Shown piece after piece: positions 52,776 to 55,605 of a stretch of DNA of 64,000 bases. The position numbers and the translations under genes were made by a program. Source of the DNA: Shimia sp. R10_1 (lineage in GTDB: Bacteria > Pseudomonadota > Alphaproteobacteria > Rhodobacterales > Rhodobacteraceae); NCBI RefSeq assembly GCF_017744095.1, contig NZ_JAGHQX010000001.1, positions 620,001 through 684,000 on the forward strand, in the 5' to 3' direction. Positions within the stretch are counted from its first letter, which is position 1. The number at the start of each line of letters is the position of its first letter. Below the pieces are notes generated by a model. That model saw only the letters and a program-made list of their open reading frames with translations. It ran no database searches and had not been told where the DNA came from.

Positions 52776-52941
52776 CTTTCCTAAGTGGCACCGGAGCACA
52801 AAACAGAGGGGCGCATAAAACACAGGCGATCCGCTGGCTTTGCGCCAAGTGTTTGCTTCCCCTTCGGCGATAACTTGCTATAAATTTGGCAACTTCGCAG
52901 GAACACGCGCATCCTGCACAACACCATGCTAGGGCTGTCCT

Positions 52942-55605
52942 ATGACCACGGATCTTGCGCTCACCCTGTCTTATCAAGGCATTAGCCTGCTTTCCCGCGT
53001 GGATGGTGGGTGGCATCTTTTGGGCGAGGTCGCCCTTGATGATGAGGACCTTCCTGCTGCCCTGACCGCATTGCGTGATCAGGCGGTTTTTGCAGGTGGG
53101 CCTGAGTTTGAAACAACGCTGGTTTTGCCAAATGACCAGATCAAATTTCTCTCCCTGCCGCTCGACGCGGCTGCTGAAGGGGCGCTTCTAGGACAGGTTC
53201 AAGAAGCACTCGAGGCCTCGACGCCCTACAGCGCCGATGAGCTGGTCTTTGACGTATATGAACGCGATGGTTTCGCGCAGGTGGCTGCCGTGGCCCGCGA
53301 AACGCTGGCAGAAGCCGAAGGATTCGCCAGCGAGCATGATTTCAACCCGGTCCGTTTTACGGCGATCCCAAACCCGGCAGATTTTGCGCAAGCGCCAAAT
53401 TTTGGCGCAACGCGGGGTGCGGAGGCGACGGGCGGTCTTACAGAGGCCGATCCTGTACCAATCAAAGTGATCGGTGAAGGCCTGCCCGAAATACAGCCTG
53501 ATCCGCCCGCGGAACCTGATACCCGCGCAGATGCGGTTGCCGAGCCGTCAGACGAGATACAGACAGAGACCGCAGAACCAGATCCCGCCCTGTCCGCTGC
53601 GCTGGCAGACGAAAACGCGACATTTGATCTGGGCGAAGAAAGCGCGGACACACAGGTTGCTTTCGCATTCAAAGAGCCCGAAGCGCCAACCGAGACAGAT
53701 GCCGACCCGCATGCTGAAGATGAGGTTGCTGCCCGCCCCACCGCGCGCGCAGAGGCAGAGGCCGAAAAAGAGACCGCTACCCCTTTTGCCTCCATCCGTG
53801 CGCAACGCGGTGCCGGCACCGGTGATACCGCGCCGCAGCTGAGTGGCGTCTCACGTGGGGTGCATGGCACCAATGCTCCAAGCATTCCGCCAGAAAGCCA
53901 AGATGACGCCACGCATGAACTGCGGTTTGACCCGGCCAAAGCCGTGGCAGGCCTGACGGCAGATCGCACAGAGGCCGCGCCGTCTGATGCGCGCGCGGAA
54001 CAGGTCGAAGGGCAACTGACGGACGCAGACTCTGGCACCTTTGCCAGTGCGCGCAACAAAACAAAGATCGCTGGGCCTCCACCGCGTGTTGCAAAGAACG
54101 ATCCCACCTTTCAGGAGAAATCGGCAGCCCCCTCCGAGCGCCAGAAAGGGGCTTTTGGGACGGCCCGTGCGGCTGAGGTCGGCGGCAAGCCAAAGCATCT
54201 TGGGCTGATCCTCACCACCTTGTTGCTGGTGTTTTTGGGATTGGTCGCCCTGTGGGCCACACTGTTCACGGAGGATGGTGTTGCCGGACTGATCGACCGC
54301 GACACGCCAGCAGAAAGCGCGCCAATCGAAAACACCGCCCAGCTGGATGAACAGCCTGAAACAACTGAGGTTGCTGTGGGGGATGGGCAAACCGATGCGG
54401 ATTTGGCGCAAGATGCGCCTGCCGTACCCGCCCCCACATCTGAACCAGCACCAGAGGCTTCTCACGTTGCGACAACAGCGCAAGAGCCTGCAACTGACGC
54501 AGATACGGATGCGGCGGCACCCAACGGCGCTATTGCGCTGACCGTGCCAGACGGGCTGCAGATCGAAGGGGAAAGCACGGATACGCAGACCGCCCTGCTC
54601 GAAGAGATCGCCCCAGAGGAACTGGCTGAAAGCCTTTCTGGCACACCTGAGCAGGCCGCGCCTGCCGTGCTTAGTCAAGACGAGGCTGAGACGCGCTATG
54701 CGGTAACCGGTGTCTGGCAACGTGCGCCAGACGCTGCGACCGCGCCTGAACTCAGCAATGACGAAGATGTTTTTGTCCCTGCGATCGACCGACTGAGTTT
54801 TGCACTTGATGCGGTCGCGCTGCCTTCTGCAGCAACGTATACAACCGACACTGCATTTGCGGCGCAAGTGAATCCCCCTTCAGCGACCACCGCCTTTGAT
54901 CTTGATGAGCGCGGCCTTGTGGTCGCCACCGCCGAAGGTGCGGTGAATGCGGAAGGGGTGATGGTCTATGCGGGGCGCCCCCCTGTGGTGCCTGCATCTT
55001 ACCCGAAACGCATCGTTGTGGCCGAAGCCCTGCAGGAACAAGCCGCAAGTCGGTTGGCCAATCTTCGCCCCAAGCCGCGGCCCAGCGACTTGTTGGAACA
55101 GAATGAGCGCGCCACGCTCGGTGGGTTGACCCGCGCAGAACTGGCTCGCATTCGTCCGCGTCCACGCCCGGAAAGCGCGCAAGATGTGGCCTCCGCAAAT
55201 CAGGCGCCAACGGCACTTGCTGTCTCTGCATCGCTGCGCCCCCGCCTGAAGCCCGCGAACATAGCGCAGCTTGCCGCCCGCGCCACACCGAGTGAGACAG
55301 CCCCAAAAACCACCGCGGCAGCGGCCCCGGCAGCGACTGTCATACCGGCAATCCCAACCACGGCCTCTGTCGCGCGACAGGCCACGATCCAAAATGCAAT
55401 CAACCTGAAAAAGGCGAGTTTGATCGGAATTTATGGCACATCCTCCAACCGGCGTGCGCTGGTGAGATTGCCATCTGGACGCTATAAGAAGGTGCAGGTT
55501 GGGGACAGGATCGATGGCGGCAAAGTGGCCGCGATTGGGGAAAGCGAGCTGCGCTACGTCAAAAGTGGACGCAACCTTGTGCTGAAGATGCCAAAAGACG
55601 GCTAA
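52942..55605 (+). CDS. Large single-pass membrane protein with GspL-like start and PilP-like end
   Basis: 887 residues, unnamed. Residues 1 to about 150 resemble the cytoplasmic part of GspL/PilM (ETTLVLPNDQIKFLSLPLDA, then QEALEASTPYSADELVFDVY). Residues about 150-415 are acidic, Pro/Ala/Glu-rich and probably disordered. One membrane helix lies at about 419-440 (LGLILTTLLLVFLGLVALWA). A second long disordered region holds repeated (K/R)PRP motifs (NLRPKPRPSDLL, RIRPRPRPESA, LRPRLKPANIA). The last 60 residues (IGIYGTSSNRRALVRLPSGR, then KKVQVGDRIDGGKVAAIGES) resemble the periplasmic PilP/GspC domain. This would join in one chain parts that are separate subunits in type II secretion or type IV pili. 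No pilus or secretion genes adjoin. Function inferred only. Confidence 0.65.
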   Translation: MTTDLALTLSYQGISLLSRVDGGWHLLGEVALDDEDLPAALTALRDQAVFAGGPEFETTLVLPNDQIKFLSLPLDAAAEGALLGQVQEALEASTPYSADELVFDVYERDGFAQVAAVARETLAEAEGFASEHDFNPVRFTAIPNPADFAQAPNFGATRGAEATGGLTEADPVPIKVIGEGLPEIQPDPPAEPDTRADAVAEPSDEIQTETAEPDPALSAALADENATFDLGEESADTQVAFAFKEPEAPTETDADPHAEDEVAARPTARAEAEAEKETATPFASIRAQRGAGTGDTAPQLSGVSRGVHGTNAPSIPPESQDDATHELRFDPAKAVAGLTADRTEAAPSDARAEQVEGQLTDADSGTFASARNKTKIAGPPPRVAKNDPTFQEKSAAPSERQKGAFGTARAAEVGGKPKHLGLILTTLLLVFLGLVALWATLFTEDGVAGLIDRDTPAESAPIENTAQLDEQPETTEVAVGDGQTDADLAQDAPAVPAPTSEPAPEASHVATTAQEPATDADTDAAAPNGAIALTVPDGLQIEGESTDTQTALLEEIAPEELAESLSGTPEQAAPAVLSQDEAETRYAVTGVWQRAPDAATAPELSNDEDVFVPAIDRLSFALDAVALPSAATYTTDTAFAAQVNPPSATTAFDLDERGLVVATAEGAVNAEGVMVYAGRPPVVPASYPKRIVVAEALQEQAASRLANLRPKPRPSDLLEQNERATLGGLTRAELARIRPRPRPESAQDVASANQAPTALAVSASLRPRLKPANIAQLAARATPSETAPKTTAAAAPAATVIPAIPTTASVARQATIQNAINLKKASLIGIYGTSSNRRALVRLPSGRYKKVQVGDRIDGGKVAAIGESELRYVKSGRNLVLKMPKDG

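Follow-up and report, generated by a model that had tools for sequence, protein, structure and literature searches.

The window analysed here is a 64,000-nt stretch of Shimia sp. R10_1 (NZ_JAGHQX010000001.1, positions 620,001 to 684,000 of the forward strand), situated on contig C11 of a 4.37-Mb assembly in 39 contigs. At 52942-55605 on its plus strand it carries an open reading frame of 887 codons with an ATG start, whose 887-amino-acid (aa) product unites a GspL-like end and a GspC/PilP-like end in one chain, referred to below as the fusion. We consider it probable, at roughly 0.6, that the fusion is a stand-alone, single-pass adaptor leading from the inner membrane into the periplasm, and that it goes back to an old GspL-GspC fusion in the Rhodobacteraceae group; it probably links the cell interior to the outer layers in a job other than secretion. 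The modules as such are known; what appears to be new is their union in one stand-alone chain, near-universal in the order and not tied to a filament or secretion machine. The chain is composed as follows:

52942..55605, plus strand: whole gene, encoding a single-chain GspL-like/HR (GspC/PilP)-like protein of 887 aa
52942..53406, plus strand: shortened GspL/PilM-type actin-like domain, residues 1-155, predicted cytoplasmic (AlphaFold2, Foldseek, VIA-align, profile, hhalign)
53407..54192, plus strand: variable Ala/Pro/Glu-rich arm, residues 156-417, predicted cytoplasmic (140-469 aa in 71 members)
54193..54267, plus strand: single transmembrane helix, residues 418-442, positive side N-terminal (hydrophobicity, charge)
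54268..54681, plus strand: variable first part of the periplasmic arm, residues 443-580
54682..55011, plus strand: conserved periplasmic block, residues 581-690, with YAxTGxW, DAVALP and GRP motifs (conservation)
55066..55083, plus strand: RPxxRP motif 1, residues 709-714
55153..55170, plus strand: RPxxRP motif 2, residues 738-743
55237..55254, plus strand: RPxxKP motif 3, residues 766-771
55363..55386, plus strand: ASVARQAT motif, residues 808-815, just before the HR domain
55414..55593, plus strand: HR domain (GspC/PilP fold), residues 825-884, six strands (fold model, profiles)

The union of the two ends is more than chance, since in a collection of 84,980 species, where the fusion was found at 73 loci, both ends were present at all 70 loci whose frame is uncut by a contig end. 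Left out of the 73 were L017 and L058, with frames cut at the contig start, and L074, a 150-base match at an edge; the 70 loci and the window make up the 71 members considered here, the closest relatives belonging to Shimia and other Rhodobacteraceae. Removal of near-identical or X-containing segments left 68 N-terminal and 61 C-terminal segments, and the alignments were made up of 56 N-terminal segments plus the window (57 sequences) and 50 C-terminal segments plus the window (51 sequences).

For residues 1-162, the AlphaFold2 model based on the 57 aligned sequences reached a mean pLDDT of 92.3 and a pTM of 0.85. Cytoplasmic domains of GspL/EpsL occupied the first five rows of a Foldseek comparison with the PDB (5tkw, expectation value (E) 5.8e-9; 1yf5, 8.0e-8; 4pht_X, 1.3e-7), followed by PilM (from 6.7e-6) and then FtsA (from 6.1e-5). 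VIA-align likewise placed GspL at the top (4pht_Y, Z 11.2, rmsd 3.6, 147 aligned residues; 1yf5, Z 11.1), with Z scores of 10.3 for PilM (5eou_B) and 7.7 for FtsA (3wt0_C). Three of the six PilM rows align residues 10-176 only and the other three extend further, 5eou_B being aligned by VIA-align over residues 10-365. An earlier note on this DNA had likened the N-terminal 150 residues to the cytoplasmic platform part of secretion and pilus machines. Of this, the actin-like GspL fold has stood up, whereas the domain proved shorter than its counterpart, with ~155 residues vs 226-238 in most GspL chains. With high confidence, we predict from the model that residues 1-155 form a shortened GspL/PilM-type actin-like domain.

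At the level of sequence, the N end has only a weak link to database models: no match above cut-off was obtained for it with Pfam or NCBIfam, whether the full-length protein or the N part was scanned. Its identity rests on the fold, on profile-profile comparison and on matches to genes of type II secretion systems (T2SS). The N profile matched seven of 337 genomes of the class, five listed under the own family and two others (E 1.5e-5 and 1.0e-4); of the 330 genomes without a match, 310 were counted as a group and not itemised. Both outside matches (L081 and L082) are GspL-type genes, recognised by Pfam PilM_2 and PilN, and both are followed by GspM (Pfam T2SSM_b) and then by a GspC-type gene within T2SS operons; that of L081 also includes GspE, GspF and GspG, that of L082 GspD and, by reading, GspF. 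In hhalign, the N end was related to four GspL sequences with a probability of 88.8%, a value that is partly circular because the N profile was itself the source of two of the four; crossed controls yielded 0.3% (N end vs GspC) and 0.1% (C end vs GspL). A PilM_2 match elsewhere in the Shimia genome turned out to be MreB.

The C end, whose last 60 residues had been compared to PilP/GspC in the earlier note, corresponds to an HR domain at residues ~825-884. The pLDDT of its model (residues 800-887, 51 sequences) averaged 78.4 and rose to block means of 89-93 across residues 830-879. PilP or GspC entries filled the first five Foldseek rows (3jc8_Pa being assigned by its chain letter), and the HR domain of GspC, 3oss_C, led the VIA-align comparison with Z 9.9, rmsd 1.8 and 61 aligned residues. 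There, the first 11 rows were GspC, PilP, GspB, type IV pilus (T4P) machine, PilQ-complex or Dot/Icm entries (Z 9.9-6.3), the next row dropping to 4.3. In line with the HR fold of two three-stranded sheets, the model has six strands and finds its best matches in HR structures. All 51 members matched TIGR03021 (pilP_fam) at E <= 1 (best 2.4e-8), and all 51 likewise matched Pfam PilP (best 1.1e-5), the window protein lying under the Pfam cut-off. A PDB sequence search with the C profile gave a GspC as best match (7oio, E 0.011), and in a small set the profile weakly found the GspC-type gene of each of the two T2SS operons, with E 0.0013 (L082) and 0.04 (L081); hhalign related the C end to three GspC sequences with 88.2%. 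The C-terminal domain of ribosomal protein L2 was also matched (E 0.033 with the full-length protein; 19 of the 51 members, the best at 0.00035), but as HR structures come out on top in the fold search, we regard this as a beta-fold resemblance and discount it. The relation of both ends to these folds had been fixed beforehand as the point on which the reading could fall, and the predicted folds are indeed related to GspL/PilM and PilP/GspC.

A second, stand-alone HR/PilP-like protein of 83-91 aa, with a VAxxAT motif and, by eye, no signal peptide, is also encoded in the Shimia genome (contig C39, L079:7641-7895, plus strand) and in relatives (L110:3591-3863, minus strand; L111:3111-3359, plus strand). 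In the three genomes inspected, its gene is flanked by purF on one side and a short-chain dehydrogenase gene on the other (both by reading). The hhalign probability relative to the C end of the fusion is 99.1%, and the ASVARQAT motif of the fusion is partly shared by the small protein. All nine sampled genomes of the genus have a second match to the C profile, its position having been checked in the Shimia genome of the window only. By eye, this stand-alone HR domain looks cytoplasmic.

As the earlier note had it, the chain contains a single membrane helix: residues 417-447 include one strongly hydrophobic stretch, and no other 19-residue window scores above 1.36, vs a threshold of 1.6. Exactly one hydrophobic cluster was counted in 66 of the 71 members and two in the other five. 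The mean net charge is +1.96 in the 20 residues before the helix and -2.96 in the 20 residues after it, with the value before exceeding that after in 71/71 members; by this charge bias and the positive-inside rule, the N end is predicted to be cytoplasmic and the C end periplasmic. The claim of two Pro-rich arms with repeated PRP motifs was right as to composition, as both Ala/Pro/Glu-rich arms (residues ~156-417 and ~443-820) contain ~10% Pro each, while the PRP (at 712 and 739) and RPxxRP motifs are confined to the periplasmic arm. Within residues 700-780 of the latter, three RPxx(R/K)P motifs follow each other at a spacing of 28-29 residues; across the 71 members the motif occurs three times in 38, twice in 29, four times in three and once in one. 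No family match was obtained for the conserved periplasmic block (residues 581-690), and a Pfam scan of the 887 aa recognised no peptidoglycan-binding domain and, at E <= 10, no GspL_C or PilN-like periplasmic domain at the profile level. The window protein has no cysteine anywhere and hence no lipobox. Residues 801-887 are the best conserved part of the fusion, and nothing follows the HR domain at the C terminus.

Whether the gene is spread over all Rhodobacterales or over some of them, a point raised by the earlier note, was answered in 292 genomes of the order (112 genera, one family in the classification used; E <= 0.001), essentially all of which have it. As to spread and INDEPENDENCE, the C part was found in 291/292 and the N part in 290/292 genomes. 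In G185, which lacks a C match, the gene is cut by the contig start; in G281 the two parts lie at two contig ends; the N part of G141 was found on scoring all first-look candidates (E 2.8e-6); and G227 is the one genome without a recognisable N part, its C part residing in an 827-aa frame. A secretin (PF00263) was found in 272 of the 292 genomes. The 20 genomes without a secretin match have all kept the N part, and 19 of them the C part (the exception being G185). Seven of these 20 (G022, G055, G139, G163, G232, G281 and G287) also gave no match to a T2SSE-type ATPase at E <= 0.001, and all seven keep both parts, six of them in one frame, with G281 representing the contig-end case. Among the other 13 secretin-less genomes, three have T2SSE matches below cut-off and nine have frames of 330-400 aa, the size of VirB11-type ATPases; G172 has a larger T2SSE match near a contig start, so that its secretin may be missing from the assembly. 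Retention in genomes devoid of secretin and ATPase matches argues against the fusion being an obligate subunit of the T2SS, T4P or Tad machine, and its partners in such genomes are then not the classical ones.

Within the genus itself, the T2SS is patchy (clusters L107 and L108), and the fusion is present in all nine sampled genomes. In the same-genus genome G001, profiles named T2SS GspL, GspM, GspC, GspD, GspE and GspF (L107), and in G093 a GspL scored above cut-off (L108); neither profile of the fusion recognises these two GspL genes. Coexistence with a separate GspL in G001 and G093, together with retention in the absence of a secretin match, indicates that the fusion is not the L or C component of the T2SS itself and needs no secretin machine. 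That the protein stands apart from a secretion machine is borne out by its difference from the true T2SS GspL of relatives and by its retention where no filament machine was found.

Four conserved regions of the fusion are under purifying selection. In close pairs, the N domain had a median dN/dS ratio of 0.093, the conserved block one of 0.083, the RP region one of 0.072 and the HR domain (residues 815-885) one of 0.036, vs 0.284 in the first arm; the maxima amounted to 0.22, 0.79, 0.28 and 0.37 for the four conserved regions and 0.56 for the first arm. Between 67 and 74 of 75 pairs were used per region (71-74 for the four conserved regions).

Several observations weigh against the adaptor interpretation, or at least against parts of it. 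The curated GspL model TIGR01709 was touched by only four of the 57 members (best E 0.0018), as was PF05134 by two (best E 0.036; window 11.2 bits vs a cut-off of 25.5), and the N profile, when searched against PDB sequences, misses GspL, its best match being a chance-looking CENP-S (E 0.076). The C model gave no Foldseek match under E 1e-3 (best 1.3e-3), and the C end of the window scores below the pilP_fam cut-off (30.0 vs 34.65 bits). Kinship to GspL and GspC of the T2SS must be distant, because the profiles of the fusion recognise neither the GspL nor the GspC of G001 (the latter with E 2.3). The 272 genomes with a secretin leave room for a role in the Tad pilus there, and the check that both parts share one frame covers some of the 20 secretin-less genomes, including the seven without an ATPase match. 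Periplasmic docking is not proven by the HR fold as such, because a signal-less HR relative exists, and the reach across the periplasm is deduced from the length of the arm. Finally, matches to the C domain are weak in genus g6 (E 3.4e-15 to 1.9e-23 in 19 of 20 genomes), where 15 of 20 genomes lack a secretin match, a pattern that could hint at a link to the secretin. Five g6 genomes with a secretin are, however, just as weak in the C domain (2.9e-17 to 1.9e-23), and so are, despite a secretin, g56, g67 and three of six g8 genomes, whereas five secretin-less genomes outside g6 gave C matches of 1.6e-28 to 1.2e-45; judged from these match scores, how far the C domain has diverged appears to depend on the clade and not on the presence of a secretin. 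In g6, which accounts for 20 of the 292 genomes (e.g., L101, L102 and L104), the HR domain of the fusion is strongly diverged.

Comparison with known components brings out what sets the fusion apart; sources given by PMC number are cited here and below from the portions available. With GspL it shares the actin-like cytoplasmic fold, the best structural match of residues 1-162, and one transmembrane helix downstream, but its N domain is shorter (~155 vs ~230 residues), a long arm precedes the helix, a recognised GspL_C or PilN-like periplasmic domain is lacking, no T2SS surrounds it and it stays below the curated models TIGR01709 and PF05134. GspC consists of a short cytoplasmic part, a transmembrane helix, a Pro-rich linker, the HR domain, a second linker and usually a PDZ domain (PMC3169554). 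The fusion resembles it in having one helix, a Pro-rich arm and the HR fold, yet carries a GspL-type domain in place of the short cytoplasmic part, ends with the HR domain and, in 20 of the 292 genomes searched, is without a secretin match to which this domain could bind. Unlike GspL and GspC of the T2SS, it is not encoded together with T2SS genes and GspD, and relatives bearing a T2SS have their own L (G001 also M and C). The likeness to PilP is seen in the HR fold and the TIGR03021 matches, the difference in the missing lipobox cysteine, the score under the curated cut-off and the failure to find a T4P machine in the Shimia genome. PilM, the second-best structural family for the N end, comprises ~350 residues vs ~155 in the fusion, whose actin-like domain is continued by a membrane helix within one polypeptide. 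GspB/OutB also combines one transmembrane helix with an HR domain, periplasmic by prediction in the fusion (GspB 4wfw, Z 6.5), but the fusion has neither the C-terminal peptidoglycan-attaching extension nor linkage to T2SS genes.

Fusions of platform proteins are known, namely PilO-PilP and EpsAB, the latter from a cited title (PMC9239104, PMC3169554), and the available portions of these two sources mention no GspL-HR fusion. GspB/OutB, EpsAB-type and PilO-PilP fusions belong to T2SS or T4P machines, whereas the fusion described here is stand-alone. In open-licence literature, mostly represented by titles and the beginnings of abstracts, we did not meet a stand-alone GspL-HR fusion; the open-licence full text searched contained no paper joining 'pilus assembly protein PilP' with 'Rhodobacteraceae', or GspL and GspC with Rhodobacterales, and no such protein is named in the available main text of the R. 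sphaeroides Tn-seq, CenKR and P. inhibens flagellum papers. A published table of signature proteins of the Rhodobacterales (PMC2241609) may list the fusion under a locus tag.

In the T2SS, the cytoplasmic domain of GspL binds the ATPase GspE, while GspC, an inner-membrane associate of GspL and GspM, crosses the periplasm, its HR domain docking on the N0 domain of the secretin (PMC6882859, PMC3169554). By analogy, the GspL part of the fusion may hold a cytoplasmic or inner-membrane partner, and its HR domain may dock on a periplasmic or outer-membrane one. The ~350-residue arm with the conserved block and the RPxxRP motifs would run through part or all of the periplasm to the HR domain, such that a multi-subunit bridge would be replaced by one chain with an anchor in the inner membrane, a flexible arm and docking domains at its cytoplasmic and periplasmic ends. 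As to the origin, two other alphaproteobacterial T2SS operons show the gene order L-M-C, which suggests that an ancestral gspL-gspM-gspC row may have collapsed into one gene. The partners are likely to be other than a secretin and a filament ATPase in some of the order at least. A more far-reaching version, which we put forward tentatively and at somewhat less than even odds, sees the fusion as a core envelope system of the whole order, possibly essential, with a single chain taking over the bridging work of L, M and C and its HR domain re-aimed at a non-secretin partner.

GspL and GspC are regarded as machine subunits that are meaningful only together with an ATPase and a secretin. Persistence of a GspL and an HR domain in genomes devoid of a secretin match would surprise a specialist, and a near-universal, constrained fusion operating without ATPase or secretin would show that a secretion platform can be reduced to one protein and reused. 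If the more far-reaching version is true, a domesticated remnant of a secretion platform has given rise to a new kind of trans-envelope link. The fusion is a testable candidate for an envelope link in a large bacterial order, its HR domain providing a handle on the partner. What adds to the oddity of the family is the HR-only protein without a signal peptide that is encoded next to purF.

Other explanations have to be weighed against an adaptor of this kind. The Shimia genome contains one secretin and one T2SSE-type ATPase that we found, both on contig C36 within a Tad/Flp locus, and since this secretin carries an N-terminal pilus domain (PF13629) that the HR domain could meet, and secretin matches are found in 272 of the order's 292 genomes, the fusion might be an extra bridge of the Tad pilus, its GspL part holding the TadA ATPase or the platform. 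We rate this as improbable: the N part persists in all 20 secretin-less genomes, seven of them without a T2SSE match, as would not be expected for a Tad component, the fusion gene lies outside the tad locus, and this locus already includes a CpaB/RcpC above cut-off, a protein that forms the alignment complex in P. aeruginosa (PMC12307814). Retention and the presence of CpaB/RcpC thus disfavour the Tad bridge. PilMNOP homologues are reported to be absent or very rare beside Tad genes (PMC6668835). A different cytoplasmic partner is conceivable in view of the affinity of GspL for its ATPase and of the MshEN domain carried by GspE of the L081 operon. The sole MshEN domain found over cut-off in the Shimia genome sits on a 658-aa GT2 protein, and fusions of MshEN with glycosyltransferases have been described (PMC5013675), so that the GspL-like part might grip the MshEN domain of this inner-membrane enzyme and the HR arm link it to the periplasm or outer membrane, making the fusion an accessory of a polysaccharide synthase controlled by cyclic di-GMP. 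This idea strikes us as a long shot, considering that the pairing is based on one genome, that the two genes are on different contigs and that we have no instance of a GspL-type domain binding MshEN outside the ATPase. The GT2 glycosyltransferase, with its N-terminal MshEN domain, is encoded beside carA (by reading) on contig C38 (L095:8449-10425, minus strand).

A scaffold for envelope integrity or cell division, which we regard as unlikely, would have the actin-like part bind a cytoskeletal protein (FtsA, MreB), while the periplasmic arm with its HR domain would hold on to peptidoglycan or to proteins of the envelope, much as GspB/OutB ties the T2SS to the wall. In the structure comparison, GspL and PilM are indeed followed by FtsA; almost every genome of the order has the gene, which is constrained; and OutB, itself a one-helix HR protein, attaches to peptidoglycan (PMC9239104). 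Yet no peptidoglycan-binding domain was recognised in the fusion, the conserved neighbours are metabolic, and the proposal proceeds by analogy. That the fusion is a decaying, functionless relic of a lost T2SS could be argued from its T2SS-type modules and the strong divergence of some members, but retention in 290-291 of 292 genomes and median dN/dS values of 0.036-0.093 in the conserved regions exclude a dead relic for practical purposes.

The stand-alone nature of the adaptor candidate is also apparent from its surroundings, in agreement with the earlier note, which had described the gene as free-standing without pilus or secretion genes nearby. None were seen adjoining it in the Shimia genome, and no T4P machine was found there. 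The upstream neighbour is an O-acetylhomoserine sulfhydrylase-type gene; downstream follow HPPD on the opposite strand, an Lrp/AsnC regulator and a Na/H-exchanger/TrkA_N (Kef-type) gene. Of the 72 family loci compared (at least 40% identity), 61 have the sulfhydrylase-type enzyme upstream with the strand unchanged, 55 have HPPD downstream and oppositely oriented, 58 have the Lrp-type gene on the same strand, at or beyond the end of the gene, and 61 have the Kef-type gene. The locus is a conserved synteny of metabolic genes and no pilus or secretion locus, and these conserved neighbours include no candidate for a partner.

Upstream of the start codon, a further feature is predicted:

52856..52885, plus strand: conserved upstream promoter-like element (CTTCCCC...TTGCTATAAAT), predicted from its conservation upstream of the start

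This element is located ~66-80 nt before the start codon and is conserved between the window (52850-52941) and the same region of the 70 loci. An AGGAG-type Shine-Dalgarno core is absent within 17 nt of the start in 71/71 members, and the sequence suggests that translation is possibly leaderless or Shine-Dalgarno-less. As to cell-cycle motifs, a full CtrA site was present in one of 71 upstream regions and GANTC in 25 vs 37.8 expected. TGCTNTA-like sites were counted in 60 of the 71 regions and lie 66-70 nt ahead of the start codon in 44 of these. Among the loci of the family sample, L032 belongs to a record titled Nocardioides marinus (JAHVJD010000002.1), an actinobacterium; its copy of the fusion is Leisingera-like by eye, and the genome behind it is probably mislabelled.

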